Assembly (NCBI RefSeq): GCF_021107415.1
Contig: NZ_JAIOSW010000143.1
Location: 1-32,423 of the forward strand
Length of the DNA: 32,423 nucleotides
Source of the DNA: Desulfobacula sp.
GTDB taxonomy: Bacteria > Desulfobacterota > Desulfobacteria > Desulfobacterales > Desulfobacteraceae
Direction: 5' to 3'
Both the position numbers and the translations under genes were made by a program. The notes under the pieces are model-generated. The model searched no databases. It saw only the letters and a list, made by a program, of their open reading frames with translations, and was not told the origin of the DNA. This document shows positions 1,054-24,368 of the stretch, one piece after another. The stretch's first letter is position 1. Each line of letters opens with the position of its first letter.

Positions 1054-2073
1054 ATGAAAAACAAGATATCTGAAATAATGTTGAAAAAAATCATAAATAG
1101 TGCCGACACATTGCTAATTGAAAGCATCAACGGATTTGGAAGAGCCAATTTCAGTTTGATTGATGTTCATGAAAATCCATTATATATCAATAGAAAAGAT
1201 GCACCACTTCATGGGAAAGTGGCTCTTGTATCTGGTGGCGGATCAGGCCATGAACCGCTTCATATTGGATATGTTGGTTATGGTATGCTGCATGCTGCGT
1301 GTCCAGGTGAAATATTTTCATCTCCAACCCCTGATCAGATATTAGCTGCCGTAAAAAAGGTTGATGGTGGTGCCGGAGTGCTTTTTATTATTAAGAATTA
1401 CGATGGTGACCGCATGAATTTCGAAATCGCCTCAGAGCTATTGGATATAGAACATTCTACCCTTATTGTCTGCGATGAGGCACTACCCCCTGATTTGGAT
1501 CAGACAATCATCCGCAGGGGACTGGCCGGCACTGTTATAATTGAAAAAATAGTGGGTGCTGCTGCACAGGCTGGCGCGGATCTATATTCCTGCAAACAGC
1601 TTGGCAAACGAGTTAACCGTGTGACGCGAACCATGGGTATGGCGCTGACAGGCTGCAGGATTCCGGCAGCAAGTAAGTCCACCTTTAACCTGGCTGATAA
1701 TGAAGTGGAAATGGGTGTTGGCATTCATGGTGAACCGGGTCGTAAACGTATAAGACAAATGAGGGCCGATGATCTGGTTCATGAACTCATAGAAGCAATC
1801 TGTATTGATTTACCAATACATCCCGGCGTCCCTGTTCTGCTCCATGTGAATGGTTTTGGGGGCACTCCCTTAATCGAGCTTCATGTTGTTTATCAGGCAG
1901 CTTTTAACCTGCTGGAAAAAAGAGGACTTCTTATTGCCCGCTCTTTTGTGGGAAACTATACAACATCTCTTGAAATGAAAGGATGTTCGATTACTGTTAC
2001 CATTTTCGATGATGAACTGCTTCATCTCTGGGATGCTCCTGTACATACAGCCTCTCTGTGTTGGGGATATTAG
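1054..2073 (+). CDS. dhaK: Dihydroxyacetone kinase, substrate-binding subunit DhaK (E. coli-like type)
   Basis: DhaK binds dihydroxyacetone covalently through a histidine and receives phosphate from ADP/ATP held by DhaL, giving dihydroxyacetone phosphate in the cytoplasm. Seen here: GGGSGHEP at 61-68, the NYDGD aspartate at 119 and GIHGEPG with the hemiaminal-forming His225, so all known key residues are present. The 339-residue length is slightly below E. coli DhaK (356). CPGEIFSSPTPDQI and the C-terminal LWDAPVHTASL-CWG resemble the E. coli protein, unlike the other DhaK in this window. AAGG lies 6 nt before the ATG. It stands alone on plus, converging with the minus-strand dha operon 17 bp away, and must borrow a DhaL from it or elsewhere. 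Confidence 0.93.
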   Translation: MKNKISEIMLKKIINSADTLLIESINGFGRANFSLIDVHENPLYINRKDAPLHGKVALVSGGGSGHEPLHIGYVGYGMLHAACPGEIFSSPTPDQILAAVKKVDGGAGVLFIIKNYDGDRMNFEIASELLDIEHSTLIVCDEALPPDLDQTIIRRGLAGTVIIEKIVGAAAQAGADLYSCKQLGKRVNRVTRTMGMALTGCRIPAASKSTFNLADNEVEMGVGIHGEPGRKRIRQMRADDLVHELIEAICIDLPIHPGVPVLLHVNGFGGTPLIELHVVYQAAFNLLEKRGLLIARSFVGNYTTSLEMKGCSITVTIFDDELLHLWDAPVHTASLCWGY

Positions 2074-2090
2074 AAATGCAAAACCAAAAA

Positions 2091-2540
2091 TTACTTCTCT
2101 GCGAGGACAAGTTCAAACAATTGTCGAGCGTAATCTTTAATCATATTTTCTATTTTATTCTGTTTTTCTGAATTTTTCAATAAAGGCGTTTTAATGATTA
2201 ATTGACCTTGAACCCTCCCTTTTGATGACTCCTGTATTTCCATTCGGTACTGGTAGTTAGGATGGGCTAAAGCATAAACTTTTAAAAAGGTTTCCCTCTC
2301 TTTGGTTGAAAATCGACATAAATTAAAAATTTTTTCCAGATGAACAGCCGGCACCGGTATGGAATAAGACGGATTGGTAATTTGAGATACAAAACTTTTA
2401 TTTTTGTTTAATACTTTGGCTATTTTTAGACGTGTTCCCGATGGACGGCGATTGATATACTCCTGCAATAAGGATTTGTATGCAGACACCATTTCTTCTT
2501 TAGGCTGAGCGCTTGACAGCTCGACAATAATTTTATTCAT
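2091..2540 (-). CDS. Small helix-turn-helix protein at the end of the dha operon
   Basis: This 149-residue protein has a helix-turn-helix-like segment at about residues 32-78: RLKIAKVLNKNKSFVSQITN resembles the recognition region of XRE-type regulators, followed by an unusual IPVPAVHLEKIFNLC stretch. The C-terminal third is charged (KNSEKQNKIENMIKD) and could be a dimerisation helix. AGAGG sits 6 nt upstream of the ATG at 2540. It is the last gene of the run dhaK-dhaL-dhaLM on minus, 34 bp after the fusion gene, so a role as local regulator of the kinase/transporter system is likely. I do not recognise a named family, and no ligand domain is visible. Confidence 0.65.
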   Translation of the reverse strand: MNKIIVELSSAQPKEEMVSAYKSLLQEYINRRPSGTRLKIAKVLNKNKSFVSQITNPSYSIPVPAVHLEKIFNLCRFSTKERETFLKVYALAHPNYQYRMEIQESSKGRVQGQLIIKTPLLKNSEKQNKIENMIKDYARQLFELVLAEK

Positions 2541-2574
2541 TATTTACCTCTGTATTGCACTATAGCCATATTAT

Positions 2575-3621
2575 TTATAAGGACATCAGTTCAGCTGTTG
2601 CGCGAACTTCTTCCAAAGATCCCCCGCCGGCAGATTCTGTGGCAGCCATAACAGCACCTTCCACAATCGGAGCATTGCAGATTATTACATTGGACTGTTT
2701 TTCTTCATGAAGCATTTCAATTGCCATTTCCGTATTGGTTTCAGCACCCCCAAGATCAACCAAAACTGCAACACCGGCTGAATTCCAGACCTGTTCAATG
2801 GCGGTTTTAATAGAAGCAACATCTGTACCTAAGCCCCCTTCCGAATTACCACCACAGCAGGATACCGGCACTTCATCTCCCACCATCTGTCGAACCATAT
2901 CAACTATGCCTTTCGCAACATCGGTTGAATGGGAAACAATTACAATTCCCACACAACCAGCTGAAGATTGCTTTGTCTGCATTTGCAATTGGGTCATCTG
3001 TTTTTCAATACTATCACAAACCGCCCGCACCAGAAGTTGGCTTGATTTAGCACCCGGATCAAGGTGCCCAATGGAGCGCTTCCCCAAAAAAGATGCCCTG
3101 CCTTTGGTAGCAACTATGTTAAGAGTAGAGTCCAAGCCCTTATCAGCAGCAGCTCTTAACATTTCTAAAGTTTGTTTAAGATCTGTATTTTTTGAAGCAG
3201 CCAGGTTCAAGGCATTAGAAACAGGGATCAATACATCCAGCATTGTTTTTTCACCCATATCAGATTTGCCTCTTTTCTTAACTGCAGAGACACCTTCTGA
3301 AATAACATGAGCAATGCCGGCGATATCAAGGATGGCTCCTTCACTTGCCTTGCCAGTTGCTATAAATAAAGACCCGTAAAGTGGTCCTGAAGCACCGCCA
3401 ATACGCATGACCAACGTGGTTCCTATTTTCTGTAATGCTTTTGAAAAGGAAAGGACGGAGAGTTCTTCGCGTATGTTGAGAACTGCATTTAAGCCGCGTT
3501 CCATATTGATGCCATGATCGCCATCACCAATGGCTCTGTCCAAATCAGATAACAGCTCACTGTTTGCTATGATGGAACCTGCTACCGAATCAATAATTTT
3601 TATCATCAGTTGTGCAATCAC
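2575..3621 (-). CDS. DhaL-DhaM fusion: nucleotide-binding subunit joined to the phosphoryl-donor (EIIA-Dha) domain
   Basis: Residues 1-210 are a DhaL domain: DRAIGDGDHGINMERG at 28-43 holds the Mg-binding aspartates, followed by GGASGPLYG and the end motif GKRSIGHLDPGA at 180-191. Residues 222-348 are a DhaM/EIIA-Man-like domain beginning GCVGIVIVSHS, in which His231 aligns with the phospho-accepting histidine of DhaM. DhaM normally takes phosphate from HPr and rephosphorylates ADP held in DhaL; here donor and nucleotide carrier are one chain, and the HPr and EI modules of E. coli DhaM are absent. Start: a GTG at 3621 with AGGAAGG 5 nt upstream; the ATG five codons later lacks suitable spacing. 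It is the third gene of the minus operon. Confidence 0.9.
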   Translation of the reverse strand: MIAQLMIKIIDSVAGSIIANSELLSDLDRAIGDGDHGINMERGLNAVLNIREELSVLSFSKALQKIGTTLVMRIGGASGPLYGSLFIATGKASEGAILDIAGIAHVISEGVSAVKKRGKSDMGEKTMLDVLIPVSNALNLAASKNTDLKQTLEMLRAAADKGLDSTLNIVATKGRASFLGKRSIGHLDPGAKSSQLLVRAVCDSIEKQMTQLQMQTKQSSAGCVGIVIVSHSTDVAKGIVDMVRQMVGDEVPVSCCGGNSEGGLGTDVASIKTAIEQVWNSAGVAVLVDLGGAETNTEMAIEMLHEEKQSNVIICNAPIVEGAVMAATESAGGGSLEEVRATAELMSL

Positions 3622-3667
3622 TTGTACCTTCCTGAATAATTATTATATTAACCATTCTCCTTTTTGC

Positions 3668-4309
3668 TTAATCAACTAGTACAACATATTCCAGCATAAA
3701 AGTAAATATCAGGTGGATTGAAATCGCTCCCGGATCCGGATGACCCAATGACCGTTCCCCCAGTGATTTAGCCCTTCCTATGGTTGCAACCATCTCTTTG
3801 GTGCTTTCCATTCCCTCTTTTGCCGCTCCAATAACTGCTAACAGTGCTTCTTCTAAAGACAATTGGCTTGTGGTTTCAGATACAAGTGCCGCAGGTTCCA
3901 GTGCATCTACCATTGTTTTATCTCCCGGTTTAGCCTTGCCGCGTTTTTTAACGGATTCTAGCCCATTGATCAGGATGAGAGAGAGCGCTTTTGCATCAAG
4001 TATTTTCTGGTCTTGGGTTTTTGAAGCAGCACCCAGGAAAAGGGTCCCGAAAATAGCTCCTGAAGCACCACCAATGGAATTCATCAAAGCAAATCCAATT
4101 GTCTTCATCAAAGCGCCCAAGGACTGAAATTCCTTGTCTGTAAGTTCCTTTTGAACCGTTTCAAAACCTATTGCCATGCCAATCCCATGGTCACCATCAC
4201 CAATCACCTTGTCTGCCTGGGTTAATATATCCTTACTTGCAATCATTTTTTCAGATAAGAACAAGAACATCTTTTTGGTTTCATGGAGACTCAGATGTGC
4301 TCTTTTCAT
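3668..4309 (-). CDS. dhaL: Dihydroxyacetone kinase, nucleotide-binding subunit DhaL
   Basis: This stand-alone 213-residue DhaL is the size expected for the family. It holds ADP/ATP through two Mg ions bound by aspartates in KVIGDGDHGIGMAIG (about 35-49); GGASGAIFG near residue 80 and GERSLGHPDPGA close to the C-terminus are further family motifs. It would transfer phosphate to ketose bound on DhaK. The ATG follows AAGGAG by about 11 nt and lies only 7 bp after the stop of dhaK, indicating translation from the same mRNA. The same operon encodes a second DhaL domain fused to DhaM, so one of the two may be partnered with the plus-strand DhaK or have a different substrate. Confidence 0.92.
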   Translation of the reverse strand: MKRAHLSLHETKKMFLFLSEKMIASKDILTQADKVIGDGDHGIGMAIGFETVQKELTDKEFQSLGALMKTIGFALMNSIGGASGAIFGTLFLGAASKTQDQKILDAKALSLILINGLESVKKRGKAKPGDKTMVDALEPAALVSETTSQLSLEEALLAVIGAAKEGMESTKEMVATIGRAKSLGERSLGHPDPGAISIHLIFTFMLEYVVLVD

Positions 4310-4316
4310 TGTGCTT

Positions 4317-5315
4317 TTATCTCCTTGTTAATGCAACCGATTGAACCGGCAGGTTATAGTATTTCTCAAGTTCATCGTCCAATCTCATAAGACTGATGGA
4401 AAAGCCAGCCATCTCAAGAGAGGTGCAATAAGTTCCTGCAAGTGTGTCATATACTTCAATCTCTTTTTCTTTCAAAATCTGACGAACTTTACGATTAATA
4501 ATCAAAATCTCCATTAATGTTGTGCCACCTAAATTGTTTACCAGTAAACACACCCTGTCATTTCTTTTAAACGGCAGATCCGACAGAATTTTTTCCATCA
4601 TTTCTTCAACCAATGCATCCGCAGGCAATAATTTTTTACGCAATACTCCAGGTTCACCATGAATTCCCATGCCGATTTCGATTTCATCATCACCCAACAC
4701 GAAGGTAGGTTCGCCTGATTCAGGAATTGAACCCGCTGAAACTGCGACTCCCATAGACCGTATATTGTCTCTGGTTTTTATGGCAATACGTTCAATTTCA
4801 TCCAGATCACTTGTTTCACTACAGACACCACCAACAATTTTTATGGCAAAGACATACCCTGCAATGCCTCGACGGTCGTCTATCTTTTCTATAGGGGCGG
4901 ATGCCACATCATCCCAGATCTGCACAGAACGAGTTTTAATATTTTCAGCAGCCGCCATTTCCGAGGCTATCTCAAAATTTAGATTATCACCCGCATAATT
5001 TAAAACCAGGTTCACAACCCCTGCTCCGGTATCTGTGGCTTTGATCGTTTTTAAAATCGTATCCGGGGTCGGTGAGGCAAAGACATGACCGCAGGCAGCG
5101 CCATCGGCAAGATTTTCACCGACAAAACCGGCTGAAACCGGTTCATGTCCGCTGCCACCTCCCACAACAAGTCCTACTTTGCCCGGCACCATTTGTTCTT
5201 TGACGATTACATTTACCCCATCCAATTTCTTCAGCTGACCATGACTTGCTTCAACCAAGCCTTCGAGAGCTTCAGGCACGACCTGCCTGGGATTATTTAT
5301 AATTTTTTTAATCAT
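4317..5315 (-). CDS. dhaK: Dihydroxyacetone kinase-type subunit DhaK, first gene of the minus-strand dha operon
   Basis: This 332-residue protein has GGGSGHEP at 52-59, NYAGD ending at Asp110 and GIHGEPG with His219, the covalent ketose-binding residue. It differs clearly from the plus-strand DhaK: ACGHVFASPTPDT replaces CPGEIF and the C-terminus is YYNLPVQSVALTRR, so it belongs to another DhaK branch, where substrates such as erythrulose are also known. A longer frame begins at 5363, but GGGAGG lies 7 nt before the ATG at 5315, so I take that start. It is followed by dhaL after 7 bp and is divergent from the ABC importer. Substrate specificity (dihydroxyacetone versus another short ketose) cannot be read from sequence. 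Confidence 0.92.
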   Translation of the reverse strand: MIKKIINNPRQVVPEALEGLVEASHGQLKKLDGVNVIVKEQMVPGKVGLVVGGGSGHEPVSAGFVGENLADGAACGHVFASPTPDTILKTIKATDTGAGVVNLVLNYAGDNLNFEIASEMAAAENIKTRSVQIWDDVASAPIEKIDDRRGIAGYVFAIKIVGGVCSETSDLDEIERIAIKTRDNIRSMGVAVSAGSIPESGEPTFVLGDDEIEIGMGIHGEPGVLRKKLLPADALVEEMMEKILSDLPFKRNDRVCLLVNNLGGTTLMEILIINRKVRQILKEKEIEVYDTLAGTYCTSLEMAGFSISLMRLDDELEKYYNLPVQSVALTRR

Positions 5316-5388
5316 AATAAAGCCTCCCTGTATAATTGTTAATTTTTTTTTTAATGGTTCCACTTTATTTTTATGACCTTCATTTATA

Positions 5389-5436
5389 TAAACTTAACTA
5401 AATTATTTTTTATATGAAAATAAACAGATATGCAAA
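5389..5436 (-). promoter_or_regulatory. Candidate promoter and regulator element for the minus-strand dha operon
   Basis: Read on minus, TTTGCA (5436-5431), a 16-bp spacer and TATAAA (5414-5409) make a reasonable sigma-70-like promoter, about 90 nt upstream of dhaK. Just downstream is TTTAGTTAAGTTTA (5402-5389), 13 of 14 identical to the element at 5554-5567 before the importer. An alternative -10 (TATATA) overlaps the end of that element. Placement is inferred. Confidence 0.45.
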
Positions 5437-5542
5437 CAATAAATTTATAATTAATATTATTACAGAGCATGACCACTATTGATAGGGATTTTAAAGTATT
5501 AGCTTTAATTCAAATTAAAATCAAAATTGCTTTAAAAAAATA

Positions 5543-5586
5543 TTGACAATAAATTTAGTTTAGTTTACAGATTACTGAACTAAACT
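5543..5586 (+). promoter_or_regulatory. Candidate promoter with operator-like inverted repeat upstream of the ABC importer
   Basis: A perfect TTGACA lies at 5543-5548; 17 bp later is TACAGA (5566-5571), a poor -10. A perfect inverted repeat, AGTTTAGTT (5557-5565) and AACTAAACT (5578-5586), has arm centres 21 bp apart, two helical turns, and covers the -10/+1 zone. That geometry suits a dimeric or tetrameric repressor or activator. The left arm lies within the 14-bp element TTTAGTTTAGTTTA (5554-5567) shared with the divergent dha promoter. It could alternatively form an mRNA leader hairpin. Confidence 0.55.
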
Positions 5587-5627
5587 TATTTGTTTGAATG
5601 ATCAATCCCAAAAAAAGGAGGTTAAAC

Positions 5628-6953
5628 ATGAAAGTTTTAATGAGAAGTTTTTTGGTATTTGCTTTGTTAATCATTGTTGGAATTTCCAGCCCTGCAATCG
5701 CCAAGGAAAAATTTATTACCCTGGGATGGGCGGCCTGGGATCCGGCTAATGCATTGGTTGAGTTATCAAAAGATTTTACAAAAAAAACAGGGATCAAAGT
5801 TCAGTTTGAGTTTGTACCCTGGACTAATTTTGCCGACAGAATGCTGAATGAATTAAATCAGGGTGGAAAAACCTTTGATATTTTGATTGGTGACAGTCAG
5901 TGGATTGGAGGTGGAGCTGTTTATGGTCATTATGTGAAGCTGAACGATTTCTTCGACAAAGAAGGCATCGACATGAACGATTTTCTGGCACCCACCGTAT
6001 ATGGCTATTCAACCTGGCCCAAGGGAACGCCAAATTATTATGCCTTACCGGCTTTTGGTGATGCCAATGCATGGGTTTACAGGAAAGACTGGTTCAACAA
6101 GCCGGAAATCAAAAAGGCTTTCAAAGAAAAGTATGGATATGAGATAGGTCCTCCGGGAACATGGACAGAGCTAATGGATATTGCCAAGTTTTTCCAGGGG
6201 CGTGTTATCGACGGTAAGAAAAGATTCGGTGCTGCAATCTTTACAGAGAGAGGGTCAGAAGGAATTACCATGGGCGTTACTTCAGCCATGTACGCATGGG
6301 GATTTAAATATGAGCATCCTAAAAAACCGTATCATATGGAAGGATACGTTAATAGTCCCCAGGCTGTGGAAGCCTTGGAATTCTATAAAGAACTTTACCA
6401 ATGCTGTACACCTCCTGGGCATTCTGATGCCTACATGGTTGCAGATCTGGATGCATATGATTCCGGTCAGGTTGCCATGCAAATGAACTGGTATGCATTT
6501 TTTCCGGGAATTAACAAGTCTGAAAATGTAGGGTTTGGTAAAACCGGATTTTTTTCCAATCCTGATCAGCTGACCTCCGGAGCCACACTGGGTGGACAGG
6601 GTATGTCGGTTGTTTCCTATTCTGATAAAAAGGATCTGGCGCTTGAGTATATGAAATGGTTTGCCAGTCCTGAAGTACAGAAAAAATGGTGGAAGTTAGG
6701 TGGATATTCCTGTCACAAAGCAGTACTTAACGATCCGGATTTTGTTAACTCACAGCCATATGCCCAGGGCTTTCTCGATTCCATGCAAAAAGTTAATGAC
6801 TTTTGGCAGGAGCCGTTTTTCGTGGAATTGATGCTCCCGATGCAAAAACGTGTTCATGACTATGTGGTTGGCGGTAAAGGGACTGCTAAACAGGCGCTTG
6901 ATTTGTTGATAAAAGACTGGAAAGAAGTTTTTGAAGAAGAAGGTAAGCTGTAA
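5628..6953 (+). CDS. ABC importer periplasmic solute-binding protein (family 1)
   Basis: This 441-residue extracellular binding protein would capture a small carbohydrate or polyol and deliver it to the membrane permeases. The N-terminus MKVLMRSFLVFALLIIVG followed by SSPAIA is a standard signal peptide with cleavage after AIA; there is no lipobox, so it is probably free in the periplasm. The mature region shows family 1 features: TLGWAAWDP, an AFxKKTGIKV-like opening helix (DFTKKTGIKVQFE), FDILIGDSQWIGGG and a C-terminal half with ALEYMKWFASPEVQKKWW. A frame opens at 5598, but AAGGAGG lies 5 nt before the ATG at 5628, which I use. It is the first gene of a six-gene importer operon divergent from dha kinase genes, suggesting a triose or polyol ligand. 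Confidence 0.9.
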   Translation: MKVLMRSFLVFALLIIVGISSPAIAKEKFITLGWAAWDPANALVELSKDFTKKTGIKVQFEFVPWTNFADRMLNELNQGGKTFDILIGDSQWIGGGAVYGHYVKLNDFFDKEGIDMNDFLAPTVYGYSTWPKGTPNYYALPAFGDANAWVYRKDWFNKPEIKKAFKEKYGYEIGPPGTWTELMDIAKFFQGRVIDGKKRFGAAIFTERGSEGITMGVTSAMYAWGFKYEHPKKPYHMEGYVNSPQAVEALEFYKELYQCCTPPGHSDAYMVADLDAYDSGQVAMQMNWYAFFPGINKSENVGFGKTGFFSNPDQLTSGATLGGQGMSVVSYSDKKDLALEYMKWFASPEVQKKWWKLGGYSCHKAVLNDPDFVNSQPYAQGFLDSMQKVNDFWQEPFFVELMLPMQKRVHDYVVGGKGTAKQALDLLIKDWKEVFEEEGKL

Positions 6954-7001
6954 TTGATTTAATTCTTCTTTGACCCGCAAAATATCGAACAGGTATTAAA
7001 A

Positions 7002-7041
7002 AATCAAGAAGCCGGGCAAAACAAGCCTGGGCTTCTTGATT
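7002..7041 (+). promoter_or_regulatory. Strong intercistronic stem-loop between binding-protein and permease genes
   Basis: AATCAAGAAGCC (7002-7013) pairs perfectly with GGCTTCTTGATT (7030-7041); the stem extends by four more pairs (GGGC with GCCT, one G-U and one bulge) around a 7-nt loop. No T-tract follows, so it is not a classical terminator. In ABC operons such hairpins commonly protect the binding-protein mRNA from 3' decay, giving more binding protein than permease. Confidence 0.75.
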
Positions 7042-7061
7042 CCAAAGTCCTGATTTGATAT

Positions 7062-8003
7062 ATGAAATCCATCAAGAAAGTTAATCTTATTGGTATTATG
7101 GTTAATCAAATAAATAAAAAAATCCTGAACATGTCCGATCGTTCTATCGCGTGGCTGTTTACATTACCTACCCTTATTCTCCTGATATTCATCAATATCT
7201 ATCCTTTGATCTGGTCGATTTACCTGTCTTTTACCAATTTTAAGGCAAATCGTCCCGGTGTACCCATCGAATGGGTGGGAACCAAGTGGTATAAGAAAAT
7301 CCTTTTAAGTGAAGATGTCTGGGCAAACATGCAGGTCACAGCGCATTTCCTGCTATGGACTATAGTATTGCAAGCTTTATTAGGGTTATCTCTGGCCCTG
7401 CTGTTAAACAGAAAATTCAAAGGGCATGAGTTGATGACAACTGTGGTTGTATTGCCCATGATGCTGTCTCCGGCAGTTGTGGGGGTTTTTTGGACCTATA
7501 TCTATCAGCCGCAGACCGGTATTTTTAACTATATTGTTAATTTTTTTAAAGATTTTGGTGAGTTCACCATGATCGGGGATTTTATTCTTGCTCCATGGAG
7601 TATCGTCATAGTGGATACATGGATGTGGACACCTTTTGTCATGTTGATGTGCCTGGCGGGGTTGCGGTCAATACCGGATTATCTTTATGAAGCAGCAGAA
7701 GTTGATAGAGCCAGCAAATGGCAGCAGTTTATTCATATCACCTTACCCTCTGTTTTGCCTTTTTTGATGCTGGCGGTTTTATTCAGGGGAATCGAAAATT
7801 TCAAGATGTTTGATATGGTCAATGAGTTGACTGGCGGAGGGCCTGGCTCAATCACGGAACTTGCATCTATTCACCTTAAGAGAGCGGCATTTGAAAAATG
7901 GAGAACGGGTTACAGCTCCGCGTTTGCAGTCATACTTTTTGTAACTATCTTCGGGGCTGGAAATATTTATGTGAAATTTTTGAACAAATTGAAAGAGAAG
8001 TAG
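7062..8003 (+). CDS. ABC importer permease (MalF/UgpA-like)
   Basis: This 313-residue integral membrane protein is an inner-membrane half of the sugar-type importer. Six or so hydrophobic segments are visible, starting with WLFTLPTLILLIFINIYPLI and ending with FAVILFVTIFGAGNIYV. The cytoplasmic coupling loop EAAEVDRASKWQQFIHITLP near residue 213 matches the EAA motif, except that Arg stands where the usual Gly is found. No strong ribosome site precedes the ATG at 7062; Met13 (7098) or Met24 are alternative starts. It is separated from the next permease by 4 bp and certainly cotranscribed. Confidence 0.9.
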   Translation: MKSIKKVNLIGIMVNQINKKILNMSDRSIAWLFTLPTLILLIFINIYPLIWSIYLSFTNFKANRPGVPIEWVGTKWYKKILLSEDVWANMQVTAHFLLWTIVLQALLGLSLALLLNRKFKGHELMTTVVVLPMMLSPAVVGVFWTYIYQPQTGIFNYIVNFFKDFGEFTMIGDFILAPWSIVIVDTWMWTPFVMLMCLAGLRSIPDYLYEAAEVDRASKWQQFIHITLPSVLPFLMLAVLFRGIENFKMFDMVNELTGGGPGSITELASIHLKRAAFEKWRTGYSSAFAVILFVTIFGAGNIYVKFLNKLKEK

Positions 8004-8007
8004 TAAA

Positions 8008-8964
8008 ATGTCTACCCATCCGGATACATCCAGATCACCGCTGGAAGCTTCTTCGCTCAGTAAAAAAATTGCAGCGATTATCGTTATTGTATATGCAACT
8101 ATTGCTTTAATACCCATGCTGTTGATTGTAGCAACTGCATTCAAAAGCACAACCGACGCCATTACATATCCTCCAAAGGTTATTTTTAAACCGTCGCTGG
8201 AAGGAATTGTCAACCTTGCTACCAACAGAACCCGGCAATCTAAAGAGTATCTTGACTCGCTGCCTCCCCCAAAGGCCTGGTATGAAAAAATTGTCCGCAA
8301 ACGTCAAATGGTTATCACCGGGCAATCCAGATTTTTCCATCGATTTACAAACTCCCTGATCATCGGCTTTGGTGCTACCTTTTTTTCTGTATTTTTAGGG
8401 ACTTTTGCCGCGTATGCATTTTCTCGTTTTAAGATACCACTGAAAGACGACCTGTTGTTTTTTATTCTTTCGACACGTATGTTTCCTCCCATTGCAGCTG
8501 CCGTACCAATCTTTTTGATGTACCGAAAATTGGGCTTGAATGATACACACCTTGGAATGATTATTTTATATACCGTTGTTAACTTAAGTCTTTCAGTCTG
8601 GTTATTAAAAGGCTTTATGGATGAAATCCCAAAGGAATACGAAGAAGCCGCCCTGGTTGACGGGTATTCAAGGTTAAGTGCTTTTTTCAAAATCATTTTA
8701 CCCCAGGCAGCAACCGGTATTGCAGCAACCGCCATTTTTTGTTTGATTTTTTCATGGAACGAATATGCATTTGCTATTTTGCTAACCTTTAGAGAAGCAC
8801 AAACACTTCCCCCCTTTATACCGACAATTATCGGAGAGGGCGGGCTTGACTGGCCAGCTATTGCAGCGGCTACAACAATATTCATGTTACCTGTTATTAT
8901 CTTTACTATTGTATTAAGAAAACATTTACTCAGAGGAATAACATTTGGAGCAGTGAGAAAGTGA
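8008..8964 (+). CDS. ABC importer permease (MalG/UgpE-like)
   Basis: This is the second membrane half of the importer, 318 residues. It has a first membrane span AAIIVIVYATIALIPMLLIV, then a periplasmic region of about 90 residues (roughly 45-110, including KEYLDSLPPPKAWYEKI) that is longer than in many MalG-type permeases. After that come the remaining spans and a normal EAA loop EEAALVDGYSRLSAFFKIILP near residue 213. The C-terminal LLRGITFGAVRK is typical for the family. Its stop overlaps the next start by 4 nt (GTGA), so the small downstream protein is translationally coupled to it. The long loop may contact the binding protein. Confidence 0.92.
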   Translation: MSTHPDTSRSPLEASSLSKKIAAIIVIVYATIALIPMLLIVATAFKSTTDAITYPPKVIFKPSLEGIVNLATNRTRQSKEYLDSLPPPKAWYEKIVRKRQMVITGQSRFFHRFTNSLIIGFGATFFSVFLGTFAAYAFSRFKIPLKDDLLFFILSTRMFPPIAAAVPIFLMYRKLGLNDTHLGMIILYTVVNLSLSVWLLKGFMDEIPKEYEEAALVDGYSRLSAFFKIILPQAATGIAATAIFCLIFSWNEYAFAILLTFREAQTLPPFIPTIIGEGGLDWPAIAAATTIFMLPVIIFTIVLRKHLLRGITFGAVRK

Positions 8965-9158
8965 ATACAAATACTAAAAAAGGATGGATCAACAGATTGT
9001 TCCGCCGAGGACCAATGGAAAACATTGCCTCTGTGGTTATTGGTTTGGGAGTTTTTATGTTCATGCAACCCTTTTCTATATTTTTGTACTCCCATTCCTT
9101 TAAATTTATTTTAACCGGCACAATCGCATTTCTTGTTGTTAGTCACTTCCCAAAATAG
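8961..9158 (+). CDS. Small (65-residue) membrane protein inside the ABC importer operon
   Basis: The frame starts at a GTG that overlaps the permease stop (GTGA), a strong sign of real, coupled translation. A basic N-terminus (NTKKGWINRLFRRG) precedes two hydrophobic segments, roughly NIASVVIGLGVFMFMQPFSI and SFKFILTGTIAFLVVSH, so an inner-membrane hairpin is likely. It ends 12 bp before the first ATPase gene. The glycerol ABC operon of rhizobia also carries a small membrane ORF (glpU) among its transporter genes; I see a positional analogy but cannot establish homology. Function unknown; possibly an assembly or gating accessory. Confidence 0.7.
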   Translation: MNTNTKKGWINRLFRRGPMENIASVVIGLGVFMFMQPFSIFLYSHSFKFILTGTIAFLVVSHFPK

Positions 9159-9170
9159 TAATGAGGACTT

Positions 9171-10253
9171 ATGGCTGAGATTGTAATAAAAGATTTGAAT
9201 AAGAAATTTGGTGAGTTTACAGCCGTAAACAATTCCAATCTTACCATAAAAGATGGTGAGTTTTTTGTATTATTGGGTCCGTCAGGATGTGGGAAAACAA
9301 CTACTTTACGGATGATAGCCGGTTTGGAATTGCCCACCACCGGTAAAATTTTTCTCGACAATAAGGACGTCACTTTTTTACGGACATCCCAACGGGATAT
9401 AGCCTTTGTGTTCCAGCTATTTGCACTTTATCCCCACATGAATGTTGAAAAAAATATCGGTTTCCCTTTAAAAATTCAAGGGGTTTCAAAAAGACAGATC
9501 AAGGATAAGGTTATAGAGGTTTCTAAAATGCTTCACCTTGAGCATCTGCTGAAATTAAAGGTATCTGGTCTGTCCGGCGGGGACAGGCAAAGAGTTGCAC
9601 TTGGAAGATCCATCATTAGAAGGCCCAAGGCTTTTTTAATGGATGAACCTCTCGGTGCTTTAGATGCTGAGTTTAGGGAAATGATGTGTTTTGAATTAAG
9701 AAAACTCCACAATGACATTAATGCCACAACAGTTTATGTCACACACGATCAAATCGAAGCGATGTCCATGGGAGACAGGGTCGGCATCATGAATAAAGGC
9801 ATCGTGCTCCAGGCAGATGATCCCTTAACGATTTATAACAAGCCAAAAACCATGTTTGTCGGCAAATTTATCGGCAGCCCGGCTATGAATTTTATTAAAA
9901 TCAATTCCGTCATCCAGAAAGGGAAAAAATCAATTAAAATCAACGATAGAAAGATTGAAATTCCTAAAACCCATGAAGACAGCAAAGCAACCTGTCATTA
10001 TCTGGGAATCAGACCTGAAAATATTGTTATTACGAACGATGGAGAAGTCAGAGGTAAGGTGTTTGGTGTCGAATACCTTGGTGCGCACCAGATAGTTACA
10101 GCAGACACTGAAGTCGGAAGGCTGAAAGTGAGAACTTCAAGTCATATTCAATTAATGATAAATGATACTATCGGGTTACATTTCCTTCCTGATAATATCA
10201 TTATTTTTAATGGTGAGACCGAGGTTGCTTTGAAAAGTCAGTTTATACTATGA
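9171..10253 (+). CDS. ABC importer ATPase 1 (UgpC/MalK-like)
   Basis: This 360-residue nucleotide-binding subunit has Walker A GPSGCGKT at 36-43, Q-loop FVFQ near 79-82, signature LSGGDRQ at 134-140, Walker B FLMDE at 155-159 and switch histidine 192 in VTHD. Residues from about 235 on form the regulatory OB-fold domain found in carbohydrate importers (GIRPENI). GAGGA lies 6 nt before the ATG. All catalytic residues are present, so it is expected to hydrolyse ATP. It is paired with a second, different ATPase 47 bp downstream, implying a heterodimeric motor rather than the usual MalK homodimer. Confidence 0.93.
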   Translation: MAEIVIKDLNKKFGEFTAVNNSNLTIKDGEFFVLLGPSGCGKTTTLRMIAGLELPTTGKIFLDNKDVTFLRTSQRDIAFVFQLFALYPHMNVEKNIGFPLKIQGVSKRQIKDKVIEVSKMLHLEHLLKLKVSGLSGGDRQRVALGRSIIRRPKAFLMDEPLGALDAEFREMMCFELRKLHNDINATTVYVTHDQIEAMSMGDRVGIMNKGIVLQADDPLTIYNKPKTMFVGKFIGSPAMNFIKINSVIQKGKKSIKINDRKIEIPKTHEDSKATCHYLGIRPENIVITNDGEVRGKVFGVEYLGAHQIVTADTEVGRLKVRTSSHIQLMINDTIGLHFLPDNIIIFNGETEVALKSQFIL

Positions 10254-10300
10254 TTATTAACATCATTTTCTATAACTTAATAAATTTAAGAAAAATATAA

Positions 10301-11320
10301 ATGTCTGAAGTAAAACTAAAAAATATAACAAAAAAATTTGACCAAACATTAGCAGTTTCTGATTTATCCTTAACGATTAAGCATGGTGAGTTTGTAGTTT
10401 TACTGGGCCCGACCGGTGCCGGAAAAACGACAACCCTGAGGCTGATAGCAGGTTTAGAATCAGCTGATCAGGGCAAAATTTTTATTAACGGACAAGACAG
10501 TACAAAATCGCAGCCCGCGCAAAGAGATGTGGCTTTTGTGTTTCAACAGTATTCATTATACCCCAATTATTCTGTATATGATAACCTGGCTTTTCCTTTA
10601 CGCTCGCCTTACAGGAAAATGAACAAACAAGATATTGATAAAAAAGTTCGTGATATTGCAACGACTCTGCATATAGAGGACAAACTTAAAAACAAATCCA
10701 CCCATTTATCAGGAGGAGAAATGCAGCGTGTTGCCATTGGCAGGGCGCTTGTACGTGAACCCAATATTTTCCTGATGGATGAACCACTGTCTTCACTTGA
10801 TGCAAAACTCAGAGAAGAATTAAGACTCGAGCTGAAAAATATTCAGGTCAACCTTCAAGCAACCCTTCTTTATGTAACACATGATCATGTTGAAGCGACA
10901 ACAATGGCTGATCATATCGGTATTTTAAAAGAAGGTGAGCTGATTCAGTTTGATACGCCTGATACTATATATAATCAGCCAAATTCCATTTATGTTGCCG
11001 ACAGACTGGGTTCACCCAAAATAAATATCATGCCGTCGCATCTTTTAAACATTGATATTCCTGAAAATGTAAAATATATCGGCGTTCGTCCGGAAAATGT
11101 AACCATTGATGAAACGGCACAAATGCAAGCACATATTGAAACCATACAAAATCTTGGAGTTGAAAAGATCATATCAATGAGTATCAATGGTGAGATTATT
11201 CGTGCGATTGTCAGACCGGATGAATTTCATAAAATTCATGATACGGTCAAAGTTCATATCACAAGAAAAAATATGCTGTTTTTTGATAAAAATTTCCAAA
11301 GGATTCAAATCAAACAATAG
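10301..11320 (+). CDS. ABC importer ATPase 2 (UgpC/MalK-like)
   Basis: This is a second, distinct ATPase of 339 residues: Walker A GPTGAGKT at 36-43, Q-loop FVFQQ, signature LSGGEMQ at 136-142, Walker B FLMDE at 157-161 and His194 in VTHD. The C-terminal regulatory domain is shorter than in ATPase 1 but keeps GVRPENV. Both ATPases look catalytically complete. Two separate ATPase genes in one carbohydrate importer operon are also known from the rhizobial glycerol transporter GlpSTPQV. It is the last gene of the importer unit; the ribosome site is weak and no terminator hairpin follows. Confidence 0.92.
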   Translation: MSEVKLKNITKKFDQTLAVSDLSLTIKHGEFVVLLGPTGAGKTTTLRLIAGLESADQGKIFINGQDSTKSQPAQRDVAFVFQQYSLYPNYSVYDNLAFPLRSPYRKMNKQDIDKKVRDIATTLHIEDKLKNKSTHLSGGEMQRVAIGRALVREPNIFLMDEPLSSLDAKLREELRLELKNIQVNLQATLLYVTHDHVEATTMADHIGILKEGELIQFDTPDTIYNQPNSIYVADRLGSPKINIMPSHLLNIDIPENVKYIGVRPENVTIDETAQMQAHIETIQNLGVEKIISMSINGEIIRAIVRPDEFHKIHDTVKVHITRKNMLFFDKNFQRIQIKQ

Positions 11321-12502: not shown

Positions 12503-12535
12503 TTTGATACCATATTAAGATTGGAGGATTTAAAA

Positions 12536-12814
12536 ATGAATATTACCAATGACATAAAGTCTGTTACTTATCTTAAATCAAAAGCCGCTGTTTTGTTAAA
12601 TCAAATTAATGAAACTCACCGTCCGGTGATCATCACTCAAAACGGAGAACCTCGTGCAGTTCTTCAGGATCCTGAAAGTTATGAAAATATGCGCAATGCG
12701 ATTGGTTTGTTAAAGCTTTTATCCCAAGGGGAAAATGACGTTCGAAGTGGTAATGTTAAAGCTCAAGAGGAAGTTTTCAAAGGCATTGAGAATTCGCTGA
12801 AAGAAAAGCTCTAA
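12536..12814 (+). CDS. Phd/YefM-family antitoxin
   Basis: This 92-residue protein has the Phd/YefM pattern: an N-terminal DNA-binding part (VTYLKSKAAVLLNQINETHR), the hallmark RPVIITQNGEPRAVLQDPES and a charged C-terminal tail that would wrap the toxin. The frame opens at a TTG at 12521, but GGAGG (12523-12527) sits 8 nt before the ATG at 12536, which I use. It overlaps the toxin start by 1 nt (TAATG), the usual coupled arrangement. Expected role: neutralise the ParE/RelE toxin and autorepress the operon. It lies beside IS91 debris, consistent with acquired DNA. Confidence 0.92.
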   Translation: MNITNDIKSVTYLKSKAAVLLNQINETHRPVIITQNGEPRAVLQDPESYENMRNAIGLLKLLSQGENDVRSGNVKAQEEVFKGIENSLKEKL

Positions 12815-13143
12815 TGAATCCAAAATATCAAGTAATTTGGACCCATGTTGCTGAAAATGATTTAAAAGAAATCATTGAGTATGTTTCAAATGACAGACCT
12901 CAAGCTGCGTTAAAAATTCTTAAAACCATTAAGGATAAAGCTTCAAATCTATATACCCTCCCGGAAAGAGGCCGTATTGTACCGGAACTTAAGGATCAAG
13001 GGATATTACAATATCGAGAATTAGTTATTCCACCATGGCGCCTGTTATACAGGATAATGGATCGGAAAATATTTGTATTATCAGTAATAGATTCTCGGCA
13101 GAATGTTGAAGATATTCTTTTAAAAAGAATGATTAATTTGTAA
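12814..13143 (+). CDS. ParE/RelE-superfamily toxin
   Basis: This 109-residue toxin matches the ParE branch: VIWTHVAENDLKEIIEYV at the N-terminus, the middle LYTLPERGRIVPEL and the C-terminal YRELVIPPWRLLYRIMDRKI with VIDSRQNVEDILLKR. ParE proteins poison DNA gyrase whereas RelE proteins cleave ribosome-bound mRNA; sequence here favours ParE-like but does not settle the target. It is full length with no lesion. Translation is coupled to the antitoxin (1-nt overlap), and its 3' end overlaps the convergent Nudix gene by 11 bp. Confidence 0.9.
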   Translation: MNPKYQVIWTHVAENDLKEIIEYVSNDRPQAALKILKTIKDKASNLYTLPERGRIVPELKDQGILQYRELVIPPWRLLYRIMDRKIFVLSVIDSRQNVEDILLKRMINL

Positions 13144-14086: not shown

Positions 14087-15790
14087 TCAAGGATTCATTT
14101 CATAGGAATCCTTTAGTAAAATAACATGATGTTCCCAGATTTTTAAGAATTTTTCTTTATTCACAATTGGTTTTTTTATGATTTTCCGGCAATATTCCAT
14201 CTGGATATCCGAGGTGTCTGTTTTTGAATAGAGGTTTAAAGCAAATTCTGAAAAGTCCCTGATCATAAAGTCAAAGATTTGTTCCAGCAGATCTTCTTCA
14301 AATCGGTCCATATTGAATTTTTCAATGATCAGCTGACCATAGGCCACAAGGGTGAACATTTCACCAAGATATAAAAGAAAGTCCATGTTCCTGGCCTGGT
14401 TTTTATCAGGCGTTGCCTTTAAGAGCATCTCCTGTAACAGCTTTATCTGTTCCTTGAAAATATTAACATTTGGCAGATCCACACTATTGTATGCAATATT
14501 AAAATCATGAAATTGAATTTTTCCAAGACCTTTTGTCGGACCCTGGTTAAACAGGAATTCATCACAGGCCGCATCATCTCTTTGACCGAGTTCAGGAAAA
14601 TCACCAGGATTAAAAAAGTAGTTGGACATGAATTTGATAATCAGTGCCATGTTTACATGTACGGTTCCCTCAAGTTTGGGCAGGGCCCGAATAGCGGTTG
14701 CCGCTATTTCAAAATAGGCATCTTTTTCAAATCCTTTTGCCGCAATTACATCCCATATCAGGTTTATCACTGTTTCACCCTGGGTGGGGACCTTCATTTT
14801 AACCATGGGATTGTATAAAAGATATCTTCTGTCATCCTTGGAAGCACTCCTAAAGTAGTCGGAAGCACGCTGGGAAAACAGTTTCATGGCCATAAGTCTT
14901 GTATATGCATCGACAAACATCTGTTTGATGTGGGGAAAATCCGTAACCCATTTACCATAGAGATTCCTATTGGCAGCATGATTCAGCCCTTCATAAAATG
15001 CATGGGTGCATATGCCGATGGATGCCCAGCCAAGGTTGAATTTTCCCACATTAATGGTGTTTAATGCAGAATCCCAGGCATCCTGTCCTGTTGAAAGAAT
15101 GTCTTTATCCATCAAGGGATAGCCGTTTAAGGCATATTCAGCCACGTAGGATTCCCATTCAACCACATTCTGGACAAGATCATAGTTTTCATGCTCAGGA
15201 TCTACGGCAAAAAAGACATACTCATCGGTTTCACTGTTTTTTCCAAAGGTAGAGACAATACCGGCTATATTGGCATTGCCGATATAGTATTTGCCGCCGT
15301 CCGCCACATATTGTCCATTGCCAAGCGGAGTTAAAGACATATCCGAGGAATAAAGATCAGCACCATGTGTTCTTTCCGACAGGCCGAAGGCAAAAATATG
15401 GCCGTCTTTTAATAATTGTGCTGTTTTATGTTTAATGGCTTCATTGGAACTCATCCAGATGGGGCCTAAGCCCAGAATAGAAACCTGCCATGTATACCAG
15501 TAAGACAGATTGTAAAATCCCAGGATTTCATTAAAATCACAAATTCTTCTGGTATCCCACCGCGCATTTTCATTGTCAATTGCATACTTCGATGGTGTGA
15601 GCAGGGTTGCAAAGATCTGGTTTTCTTTTAAAAACTCAAGAAAGTCGCCATACCATACCTTCTCATGATAGTCTGATTTCAATCTTTTTTTCCCCCGGCT
15701 TTCAAAAAAATTAATGGTTTTTTTCATGATTTTTTTTGATTCCGGATCAAGGTGTTCAAATTTTTGAGTTTTCGGGTTTAATAAAGTCAT
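14087..15790 (-). CDS. Long acyl-CoA dehydrogenase family flavoprotein
   Basis: The enzyme would oxidise an acyl-CoA at C2-C3 using FAD. Seen: FAFGLSERTHGADL at 133-146 (the T-x-E-x-x-x-G-S-D-like FAD loop), a helical core HAANRNLYGKWVTDFPHIKQ at 271-290 that includes the usual Arg, and KLEGTVHVN at 372-380, whose Glu374 matches the catalytic base of the EGT motif. At 567 residues it is much longer than the ~380-residue family norm, with an extra N-terminal domain of about 90 residues and a C-terminal extension of about 130. AAAGGA precedes the ATG, 11 bp after the marR stop, so both are cotranscribed. Substrate unknown; the divergent acyl-CoA ligase and TRAP carrier hint at an imported acid. 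Confidence 0.88.
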   Translation of the reverse strand: MTLLNPKTQKFEHLDPESKKIMKKTINFFESRGKKRLKSDYHEKVWYGDFLEFLKENQIFATLLTPSKYAIDNENARWDTRRICDFNEILGFYNLSYWYTWQVSILGLGPIWMSSNEAIKHKTAQLLKDGHIFAFGLSERTHGADLYSSDMSLTPLGNGQYVADGGKYYIGNANIAGIVSTFGKNSETDEYVFFAVDPEHENYDLVQNVVEWESYVAEYALNGYPLMDKDILSTGQDAWDSALNTINVGKFNLGWASIGICTHAFYEGLNHAANRNLYGKWVTDFPHIKQMFVDAYTRLMAMKLFSQRASDYFRSASKDDRRYLLYNPMVKMKVPTQGETVINLIWDVIAAKGFEKDAYFEIAATAIRALPKLEGTVHVNMALIIKFMSNYFFNPGDFPELGQRDDAACDEFLFNQGPTKGLGKIQFHDFNIAYNSVDLPNVNIFKEQIKLLQEMLLKATPDKNQARNMDFLLYLGEMFTLVAYGQLIIEKFNMDRFEEDLLEQIFDFMIRDFSEFALNLYSKTDTSDIQMEYCRKIIKKPIVNKEKFLKIWEHHVILLKDSYEMNP

Positions 15791-15801
15791 AAATTTTTCC
15801 T

Positions 15802-16275
15802 TTAACCTGACGGGTTTATAATATGGTTAGTACTCAAACTTGTTTGTTCAGAGTTGATGACATCGGCTAAAAATCGTTTGAACAATATTTTTTCTTCTAT
15901 GGAAAAGGTTTTTAATATTTTTTCATTGGCTTTTTGCCGCTCTTTGATCAGAATTTCTTTCAGGTCATCTGCCTTTTGGGATGTGTAGATGGACAGCAGT
16001 CTTTTGTCATTTTTATTGGGTTCTTTTTTAATCCATCCTGCCTTTACCATCCGTTCCAGGACACCGGAAAGTGTGGCCTTGTCAAGAATCAGGAATTTGC
16101 CCAGTTGAGCTGCGGTCATTCCCTGTTTGTACCAAAGACCTTCCAGAACCAGGTGCTGTAAATTTGTTAAACTATATGGGGTCAATTGCTTTTTGAAATT
16201 TGCATGGGCTTTCTGGTATGCTTTAGCTAAAAGAAATACCATGCAATCCGGGACATCATCTGGTAATTTTGTCAT
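15802..16275 (-). CDS. MarR-family transcriptional regulator
   Basis: This 157-residue winged-helix regulator has the MarR layout: dimerisation helices at both ends, a recognition region MTAAQLGKFLILDKATLSGV and the wing with the conserved DKRLLSIYTS (the family D-x-R). MarR proteins usually repress by binding palindromes and release on binding small acids or CoA esters. A frame opens at 16311, but AAGGAG lies 7 nt before the ATG at 16275, so I use the shorter form. It heads the run with acyl-CoA dehydrogenase, Mth938 protein and Nudix gene and is divergent from an acyl-CoA ligase, both likely targets. The promoter carries a palindrome suited to autorepression. Confidence 0.93.
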   Translation of the reverse strand: MTKLPDDVPDCMVFLLAKAYQKAHANFKKQLTPYSLTNLQHLVLEGLWYKQGMTAAQLGKFLILDKATLSGVLERMVKAGWIKKEPNKNDKRLLSIYTSQKADDLKEILIKERQKANEKILKTFSIEEKILFKRFLADVINSEQTSLSTNHIINPSG

Positions 16276-16286
16276 CTTTAAACTCC

Positions 16287-16328
16287 TTCGTATACGAACT
16301 ATATATGTCATGCATTTGATTTTGTCAA
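16287..16328 (-). promoter_or_regulatory. marR promoter with operator palindrome
   Basis: Read on minus, TTGACA (16328-16323), a 17-bp spacer and TATATA (16305-16300) form a near-consensus sigma-70-type promoter. The perfect 12-bp palindrome TTCGTATACGAA (16298-16287) begins 1 bp downstream of the -10, so it covers the expected transcription start, and overlaps the Shine-Dalgarno of marR. This is a classical arrangement for self-repression by a MarR dimer. No second copy was seen nearer the divergent ligase gene. Confidence 0.75.
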
Positions 16329-16355
16329 TTCAATAAGTTTGCGTTTCGGATTACT

Positions 16356-16383
16356 AAGGGATTCCCCCCTCCCTTAATAAGGG
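16356..16383 (+). repeat. Overlapping inverted repeats upstream of the acyl-CoA ligase
   Basis: AAGGGA (16356-16361) can pair with TCCCTT (16370-16375), while CCCTTAATAAGGG (16371-16383) is itself a palindrome with a single central base. The two share bases and are mutually exclusive. They lie about 90 bp before the ligase start. Operator or leader structure is possible; no function is assigned. Confidence 0.35.
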
Positions 16384-16471
16384 TTCTCCCCCATTGAATC
16401 CTTCAGTGTTTTGCCATAAAAATTTATGCAGGATAAATTTATAATCAGCAAAATTGTTGAAAGGAGAAAAA

Positions 16472-18118: not shown

Positions 18119-18141
18119 TCTGTTTTGTTTAAGGGTTAAAT

Positions 18142-18654
18142 ATGGAAAAGTTCTGTGATTTTTTAGAAACAATTGTGGAGCGCATAGGGCATATCGCAAT
18201 GTGGAGTAATGCCTTGCTGGTGCTCATCATTATTTTGCAGGTAACCTTGCGTTATGTATTTAATCATGGACTGGTGGCCCTTGAAGAACTTGAATGGCAC
18301 CTTTATGCCGTCGGTATAATGACCGGTGCATCCTATGCAATGGTAAAAGATGTGCATATCAGGGTAGACCTTGTTTATTTAAAGTTCTCAAACAAAACAA
18401 AGGCAGTATCCGAGCTTTTCGGCATACTATTTTTGCTCTTACCTTTTTTGTGGGTGATTTTTCATCAAAGTCTCGACTTTGTGCACGAAGCATGGCGGTT
18501 AAACGAAGGCTCTCCCTCTCCCATGGGCTTACCCTATAGATGGGTGATAAAATCCTTTATCCCCTTTGGCTTTGGCCTGATGATTCTTGTTGCAATGTCT
18601 AAAATGACAAAATTGTTTATCTCATTGTGGAGGCCCGGGCATGGAACTGAATGA
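18142..18654 (+). CDS. dctQ: TRAP transporter small membrane subunit (DctQ type)
   Basis: This 170-residue protein has four hydrophobic spans (from about residues 18, 52, 86 and 130), the typical DctQ layout, including the family-like LRYVFNHGLVALEELEWHLY after span 1. It pairs with the large permease to drive Na+- or H+-coupled uptake of a bound organic acid. AAGGG precedes the ATG by 7 nt; the gene lies 23 bp after the ligase and overlaps the next gene by 14 nt, so ligase and transporter are one transcript. Confidence 0.9.
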   Translation: MEKFCDFLETIVERIGHIAMWSNALLVLIIILQVTLRYVFNHGLVALEELEWHLYAVGIMTGASYAMVKDVHIRVDLVYLKFSNKTKAVSELFGILFLLLPFLWVIFHQSLDFVHEAWRLNEGSPSPMGLPYRWVIKSFIPFGFGLMILVAMSKMTKLFISLWRPGHGTE

Positions 18655-20026: not shown

Positions 20027-20052
20027 TAATTAAAATTTTAAGGAGAAAAAAC

Positions 20053-23728: not shown

Positions 23729-24368
23729 TGATCACAGTGTCGTTCGAAAGGGCATTTGTCAGATCATTGATGTTCAGGCTGACATGGAAGTAGCCGGGGA
23801 GGCCAAAGACGGGGTTGAGGCCCTTAAGAAAGCAAGGCGGCTGACACCGGATATAGTGCTGCTTGATATTGCCATGCCAAATCTAAGCGGCCTTGAAATC
23901 ATCTCAATGATAAAGGAGGCCGTACCCCGGGCAGGTGTTGTCATTCTTTCAATGCATGCCAAAGAAAGCTACGTACACCAGGCACTTAATTCAGGGGCTC
24001 TCGGATATGTTCTTAAAGCATCCCATGGGTCTGATATTCTTAATGCCATACGATCAGCCCATAAGGGAGAGTACTTTTTAAGTTCTAAAATAAAGGCCGA
24101 TGTCATTGACAGTTATCTGAAAAACAAAAAAAAAGAACCCATCGTCCGGGGGTATGACCTGCTTTCAGAAAGAGAACAACAAATTTTCAGGCTTGTTGTT
24201 GAAGGTAAATCAACCAAAGAAATCGCAGACCTTCTTTTTGTCAGTCCCAAAACTATTGAAAAGCACAGGTCAAATGTAATGAATAAACTCGGTGTCCACG
24301 GAAGACTGGAACTGCTCAAATATGCTATCAAAATTGGTGTTGTTGATCCTGCTCTGTGGGAAGATTAA
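23700..24368 (+). CDS. NarL/FixJ-family response regulator
   Basis: This 222-residue regulator has an N-terminal receiver with acidic pair Asp10-Asp11, phospho-acceptor Asp56 (VLLDIAMP), a switch Ser near 84 (ILSMHA) and Lys106 (YVLKAS). The C-terminal LuxR-type helix-turn-helix reads LSEREQQIFRLVVEGKSTKE and SPKTIEKHRSNVMNKLGVHG. It binds DNA when phosphorylated by the kinase encoded immediately upstream (29-nt overlap). AAAGG lies 9 nt before the ATG. No terminator hairpin follows; a 144-bp gap separates it from the next gene. Confidence 0.95.
   Translation: MKKIQILIADDHSVVRKGICQIIDVQADMEVAGEAKDGVEALKKARRLTPDIVLLDIAMPNLSGLEIISMIKEAVPRAGVVILSMHAKESYVHQALNSGALGYVLKASHGSDILNAIRSAHKGEYFLSSKIKADVIDSYLKNKKKEPIVRGYDLLSEREQQIFRLVVEGKSTKEIADLLFVSPKTIEKHRSNVMNKLGVHGRLELLKYAIKIGVVDPALWED

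Follow-up and report, generated by a model that had tools for sequence, protein, structure and literature searches.

The window analysed here is the whole 32,423-nucleotide contig NZ_JAIOSW010000143.1 of Desulfobacula sp. (assembly GCF_021107415.1), and its positions 1054-11320 hold a gene cluster in which dihydroxyacetone (DHA) kinase subunits of the phosphotransferase system (PTS) type stand beside a six-gene ATP-binding cassette (ABC) importer. The link between this importer and a Dha kinase is very strong, and the importer-kinase module is real and conserved, known as a cluster in one organism and, so far as the literature searches show, uncharacterised in function. Judging from domain content and the conserved pairing, we consider it moderately probable that the cluster takes up and traps a short-chain ketose, for which DHA is the likeliest candidate, followed by erythrulose or another ketose of the kind. 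The periplasmic protein encoded at 5628-6953 would bind the ketose, two permeases and two ATPases would spend ATP to bring it in without modification, and in the cytoplasm the pair of DhaK-a and DhaL would phosphorylate it to DHA phosphate, which would enter glycolysis. The phosphoryl group would here come from phosphoenolpyruvate via enzyme I (EI) and HPr, presumed to be encoded elsewhere in the genome, and then via the DhaM domain of a DhaL-DhaM fusion, while in relatives it may come from ATP. DhaK-b and the second DhaL would be a further kinase, divergent and changed in its pocket, that perhaps acts on a different ketose, and a small helix-turn-helix (HTH) protein would probably control the cluster.

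An initial annotation of this DNA had listed the gene set and its positions, which were confirmed by the open reading frame (ORF) listing and by Pfam and NCBIfam scans:

1054-2073, plus strand: dhaK-a, matching Dak1 of Pfam at 9e-112, with E. coli DhaK as the best match in the Protein Data Bank (PDB; 3e-98)
2091-2540, minus strand: small HTH protein, matching no Pfam or NCBIfam family
2575-3621, minus strand: dhaL-dhaM fusion in a single ORF, matching Dak2 (2e-50) and EIIA-man (1e-27)
3668-4309, minus strand: second dhaL, the partner of dhaK-b, matching Dak2 (7e-54)
4317-5315, minus strand: dhaK-b, matching Dak1 (8e-114, scored on 4317-5363)
5316-5627, no strand: region of 312 bp separating the divergent dhaK-b and importer starts
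5628-6953, plus strand: substrate-binding protein of CUT1 type (SBP_bac_1/8), with a signal peptide judged by eye
7062-8003, plus strand: permease 1 (BPD_transp_1)
8008-8964, plus strand: permease 2 (BPD_transp_1)
8961-9158, plus strand: membrane protein of 65 amino acids, the sixth importer gene, conserved in the importer operon and without a Pfam family
9171-10253, plus strand: ATPase 1, MalK/UgpC-like (ABC_tran)
10301-11320, plus strand: ATPase 2, MalK/UgpC-like (ABC_tran)

The head-to-head arrangement around one regulatory region, as originally proposed, stands for the minus-strand set of dhaK-b, dhaL, dhaL-dhaM and the HTH gene against the plus-strand importer, but not for dhaK-a, which is convergent with the HTH gene (gene ends 17 bp apart), lies outside the divergent pair and, being on the plus strand, has a separate upstream region. 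The genes are closely spaced, with intervals of 34, 46 and 7 bp in the minus-strand set and of -4 to 108 bp in the importer. The dhaK-b ORF has an alternative upstream GTG start at 5363, although the ATG at 5315, which gives a protein of 332 amino acids, is the more likely start, and GGAGG precedes the binding-protein start at 5628. A promoter scan returned 16 promoter-like sites, fewer than the shuffles (29.2), and Rfam and tRNA scans were empty.

The pairing of importer and kinase was followed in a first scan, in which species genomes were searched with the binding-protein alignment and the best 80 of 571 confirmed loci, mostly from SAR11, were analysed. All 57 loci with at least 8500 bases downstream of the binding protein, a threshold fixed after the locus maps were seen, carry the five other importer genes together with DhaK and DhaL. 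Among the 23 loci below that length, six have both dha genes, one has DhaK only (L002), one DhaL only (L073) and 15 neither; L057 has 7.8 kb downstream of the binding protein and no dha gene. Because this set is biased toward SAR11, three whole-genome sets were taken, together 615 genomes (289 from the class of G024, 52 from the SAR324 phylum of G021 and 274 from the class of G018), the set centres having been chosen as holders of the locus and being included in the counts.

In the evenly drawn class of G024 (L078, Bauldia), the binding protein was found in 18 of 289 genomes (E <= 1e-60, at least 61% identity), with DhaK and DhaL beside the importer in all 18 (17 fetched loci plus L078) and the small importer gene detected in 16 of the 17 fetched loci. 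Eleven of the 52 SAR324 genomes match, one of them at 44%, which is of a sister type without dha genes (see below); the other ten loci match at 67-86%, and eight carry DhaK and DhaL, the exceptions lying on cut contigs (L137 has DhaK at the contig edge, L141 ends inside permease 2). The class of G018 (the Burkholderiales metagenome-assembled genome of L055) has the binding protein in four of 274 genomes, always with DhaK and DhaL. Over the three sets, DhaK and DhaL thus stand beside the importer in 30 of 32 loci, the other two being cut by contig ends, and in 24 of 26 once the three centres and three DNA-sharing loci are removed (L103, L136 and L138, which share DNA with L053, L002 and L054 of the first scan). 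L002, titled Neomarinimicrobiota, and L136, which lies in G339 of the SAR324 phylum, are the same DNA, which raises a doubt about binning; the lineage labels of metagenome assemblies are therefore uncertain.

The expectation that importer and dha genes co-occur in related genomes is borne out by these counts, while its reverse, that dha genes always come with the importer, fails. Dak1 is present in 29 of the 289 genomes, including all 18 with the importer (Fisher 2e-21, uncorrected for kinship), and nine of the 11 others have DhaK with no importer nearby; of the last two, G183 has the later importer genes on a contig that begins inside permease 2, and G198 has its DhaK on a contig of 4.8 kb. 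The association thus runs one way: where the importer is, the kinase is too, but the kinase does not need the importer beside it.

The kinase that accompanies the importer comes in three forms. In many loci of Alphaproteobacteria and SAR324, the cluster contains DhaL, DhaM, EI, usually the HTH gene, and DhaK, with an HPr ORF between DhaM and EI in both loci inspected for it (L012, L148); the single EI that was checked passes TIGR01417. In SAR11 and L003-type loci the kinase genes are DhaL and DhaK only, and the DhaM domain PF03610 was found in none of 13 genomes of this kind, which are of unstated completeness, the same search being positive in five of 14 control genomes. Other loci encode a single fused chain of 540-549 amino acids that comes near the model of the ATP-dependent kinase (484-506 bits for the three tested, below the cut-off of 575); in a Shinella plasmid record a fused-type kinase gene is annotated after the importer, and L067 and L114 have two kinase sets each, one of them of the fused type. 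The mixture of ATP-driven import and PTS phosphotransfer, which the initial annotation had called unusual, is not what defines the system, as there are versions with DhaK and DhaL but without DhaM and others with a fused ATP-type kinase, and the PTS is likewise ruled out as an essential part. As the three kinase forms interchange while the importer stays, the phosphoryl donor is exchangeable, and as the importer and a Dha-type kinase are constant, the imported substrate is taken to be the substrate of the kinase or a quick precursor of it.

The closest relative found with its neighbourhood is G359 (L135/L148), in which the binding protein is 86%, both permeases 90% and dhaK-b 69% identical to those of the window. 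It has the same gene set with dhaK-a convergent to the HTH gene, plus HPr and EI between dhaM and the HTH gene, whereas the window cluster is without HPr and EI, has DhaL and DhaM fused and has the importer in reversed orientation. GlyQ, in contrast, reaches no more than 60% identity to the SAR324-phylum genomes, of which 28 of 52 give a match, G359 being outside those 28.

All three subunit types of the PTS-dependent DhaK-DhaL-DhaM systems of E. coli and L. lactis are present in the window and the DhaK motifs are conserved, but here DhaL and DhaM are fused, a second DhaK/DhaL pair is present and an ABC importer is attached. DhaK-a is probably a Dha-binding kinase subunit of the E. coli PTS type, with the GGGSGHEP, KNYxGD and GIHGEPG motifs intact. 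Against the DhaK model TIGR02363 (cut-off 406.25), dhaK-a scores 404.0 and dhaK-b 367.5 bits, both under, and both pass the Dak1 cut-off. The fusion, which joins a nucleotide-binding DhaL to the phosphohistidine-carrying DhaM domain, and the second dhaL pass the DhaL model TIGR02365 (213.5 and 191.4 bits; cut-off 138.3), and the fusion also passes the DhaM model TIGR02364 (138.2 bits; cut-off 98.25).

DhaK-b, whose best database matches reach 79% identity and whose relatives include one named Desulfoprunum, retains both His motifs and the Asp motif, but belongs to a subfamily in which Leu or Gly replaces the Lys before NYxGD in ten of ten aligned members. In E. coli DhaK this Lys is Lys104, one of the residues of the active site. 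It is present in 93 of 95 DhaK ORFs from the loci, the exceptions being dhaK-b itself and L133; these ORFs were picked by two short motifs, which are thus bound to be conserved, many of them are SAR11 copies that barely differ from one another, and the selection missed the stand-alone DhaK ORFs of L120, L121, L126, L131 and L132. Two of the latter, in L121 and L126, also have Gly at the Lys position. The Lys-less subfamily (L121, L126, L133 and dhaK-b) stands alone with DhaL in some genomes, and in L121 and L126 the gene sits behind an SDR gene. With this residue changed, DhaK-b may act on another substrate or may be less active. It was rejected as a DhaQ coactivator (TIGR02362, 228 against 413 bits) and as a fused kinase of the ATP type, since DhaK and DhaL are separate ORFs (332 and 213 amino acids).

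The importer has the make-up of a CUT1 carbohydrate ABC system, namely an SBP_bac_1/8 binding protein, two BPD_transp_1 permeases and MalK-type ATPases with TOBE domains, TOBE_2 of ATPase 2 falling just under the cut-off (20.2 against 21). Its binding protein lies outside the characterised unrelated sugar families, membership in one of which would have spoken against a dedicated ketose importer: the best PDB match, a trehalose/maltose-binding protein, reaches 4.6e-23, and identity to GlpV-type proteins is about 25%. The structure model of the binding protein has a mean predicted local distance difference test score (pLDDT) of only 60.6, perhaps owing to a shallow alignment. A sister importer family, with binding proteins 41-44% identical, has no dha genes in the fetched stretches of all four loci (L081, L082, L134, L144). 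On Rhizobium plasmids (L081, L082; 41-42%) it has the identical six-gene order, but stands beside enolase-superfamily, epimerase and dehydrogenase genes of sugar-acid-like character instead of dha genes; the small gene of the sister loci was undetected by our query and is known in L081 and L082 by annotation only.

Several observations weigh against a short ketose as the substrate. Neither EI nor HPr was found within the window. The best PDB match of the binding protein and its other solved relatives bind sugars, and CUT1 binding proteins of about 440 amino acids often take larger ones. LacI-type sugar sensors occur in other loci of the importer family. Above all, a Gfo/Idh/MocA oxidoreductase and a TIM-barrel protein are encoded in 41 of the 54 first-scan loci with room on both sides, and in the 289-genome set the TIM-barrel gene is present in 11 of the 18 genomes with the importer and in 14 of the other 271 (p 4e-9, uncorrected for kinship). 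The TIM-barrel protein matches PDB 8ro4, a '2-hydroxy-3-keto-glucal hydratase', over its full length (6e-183, and 4e-178 for the SAR11 copy; two tested), and its Gfo/Idh/MocA partner has distant matches to sugar dehydrogenases. Enzymes of the 8ro4 type convert 3-keto-glucosides to glucose, and the pair hints at a larger, hexose-sized sugar in part of the family. It is the main reason why the ketose reading is held with moderate confidence, and the LacI regulators point the same way.

The most probable alternative is that the importer carries a larger sugar, such as a glucoside, 3-keto-glucose or a related keto-sugar, that enzymes encoded nearby degrade this sugar, and that the Dha kinase handles a C3 or C4 ketose released from it. 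This is consistent with the closest PDB match of the binding protein, which takes a disaccharide, with the full-length 8ro4 match and the distantly sugar-dehydrogenase-like partner, and with the presence of the enzyme pair close to the importer in various lineages and orientations. We nevertheless regard it as rather unlikely, since the pair is absent from 13 of the 54 first-scan loci and from the window, as well as from 11 of 18 alphaproteobacterial loci (weak for L106, L112 and L116, which have less than 2.5 kb upstream), since it also stands beside other transporters elsewhere, and since, among the neighbours annotated, neither a lyase nor an aldolase turned up as a regular partner. In the whole-genome sets, the pair was found in seven of 17 loci from the class of G024 and in eight of 13 loci of the other two sets, the 13 including the sister locus L144. 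The TIM-barrel gene is missing, or nearly so, from the locus of 17 genomes or records. Eight of these carry a copy elsewhere that is at least 73% identical, while six genomes and two plasmid records show no match or distant or partial ones, such as the partial 54% match of G015.

The 8ro4-like/MocA pair was accordingly rejected as the defining step of the system: relatives of the cluster frequently have it in the locus, but many loci do without it, the window among them, and away from the importer locus it adjoins different transporters. In L094-L102 a variety of transporters adjoin the 8ro4-like TIM barrel, which mostly keeps its MocA partner; in L101 its neighbours are ORFs with the look of a sugar kinase and an isomerase. 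The original remark that no ketose-forming enzyme accompanies the cluster holds within the window, but many relatives carry the Gfo/Idh/MocA dehydrogenase and the 8ro4-like TIM barrel in the locus. A broader reading of the family, which we offer tentatively and think improbable, would make it a widespread uncharacterised ABC route for DHA or a keto-sugar in SAR11, SAR324 and many Alphaproteobacteria, in large part tied to the 3-keto-glucose pair, with the Dha kinase as the last step from a 3-keto sugar or glycoside to triose phosphate.

The altered residue in the active-site motif of DhaK-b, together with the existence of erythrulose kinases in the Dak family, would also fit the import of a four-carbon ketose or the corresponding polyol (erythrulose, erythritol), with the kinases acting as erythrulose kinases; this is quite improbable, as DhaK-a retains the DHA kinase motifs and no tetrulose-phosphate isomerase is among the annotated recurring neighbours. 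That the importer would instead carry glycerol, to be oxidised to DHA by a dehydrogenase encoded elsewhere before DhaK acts, is very unlikely, because the general build shared with GlpSTPQV operons (two ATPases, two permeases, a small membrane protein and a binding protein) is set against the low identity to GlpV-type binding proteins, the lack of a Pfam (DUF2160) match in the 65-amino-acid protein, another gene order and the absence of glpK, glpD and glycerol dehydrogenase among the scanned ORFs of the window cluster. GlpSTPQV-type operons in Rhizobium carry glycerol. Their order in L092 and L093 is glpD-ATPase-ATPase-permease-permease-DUF2160-binding protein-glpK, and a GlpSTPQV glycerol importer was ruled out for the window on the same grounds. 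For an operon of this type in Ruegeria, SPO0608-0612, glycerol transport is stated in print (PMC9870897).

The uptake of DHA by bacteria is generally regarded as needing no binding-protein carrier. A published counterpart of the cluster is found in B. diazoefficiens, where blr3566-blr3577 comprise a binding protein, two permeases, a small gene, two ATPases, DhaL, IIA-man, HPr, EI, a hypothetical protein and DhaK, and were induced and repressed together; in the accessible sections, the authors connect these genes with taking up substances and sugars, without naming a substrate (PMC5017801). The likeness to the importer-kinase family lies in the shared gene order, the match being by annotation and order alone; the B. 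diazoefficiens cluster differs from the window in standing on one strand (by gene names), in having HPr and EI, and in having a single DhaK and DhaL. The suggestion that the route could be previously undescribed is to be qualified, as the cluster had been listed and seen to be co-induced there (PMC5017801). In other sources, blr3566 is listed among orthologues (PMC8632152) and the dhaKLM of Haloquadratum is itself called a PTS-dependent uptake system (PMC5496347), and the portions of the literature that our search covered, including PMC10308909, PMC11366302 and PMC9007349, gave no substrate assignment for such an importer.

The HTH protein (2091-2540), for which the Pfam and NCBIfam scans gave no family, adjoins EI/DhaK in most PTS-type relatives, though not in L001 or L136. 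Its model is helical (pLDDT 83), and its Foldseek matches are mostly lambda-repressor/XRE-like, none of them at E <= 0.001. It is probably the regulator of the cluster, and possibly a third kind of dha regulator.

Elsewhere in the window, a type II toxin-antitoxin pair of a Phd/YefM antitoxin and a ParE toxin lies at 12521-13143. At 14087-21132, an acyl-CoA dehydrogenase and a MarR regulator are divergent from an acyl-CoA synthetase-like ORF and a TRAP transporter (DctM, DctP), genes that perhaps serve the uptake and activation of an organic acid, and at 22217-24368 a PAS sensor histidine kinase adjoins an ORF resembling a LuxR-type response regulator.

For the importer-kinase module itself, knowledge of the ligand of the binding protein would give a function to an importer that is present in 18 of the 289 genomes of a class-wide sample. 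That this importer keeps one kinase family in SAR11, SAR324 and other lineages suggests that a free short ketose, or the compound from which it arises, is worth the expense of ATP in nature.

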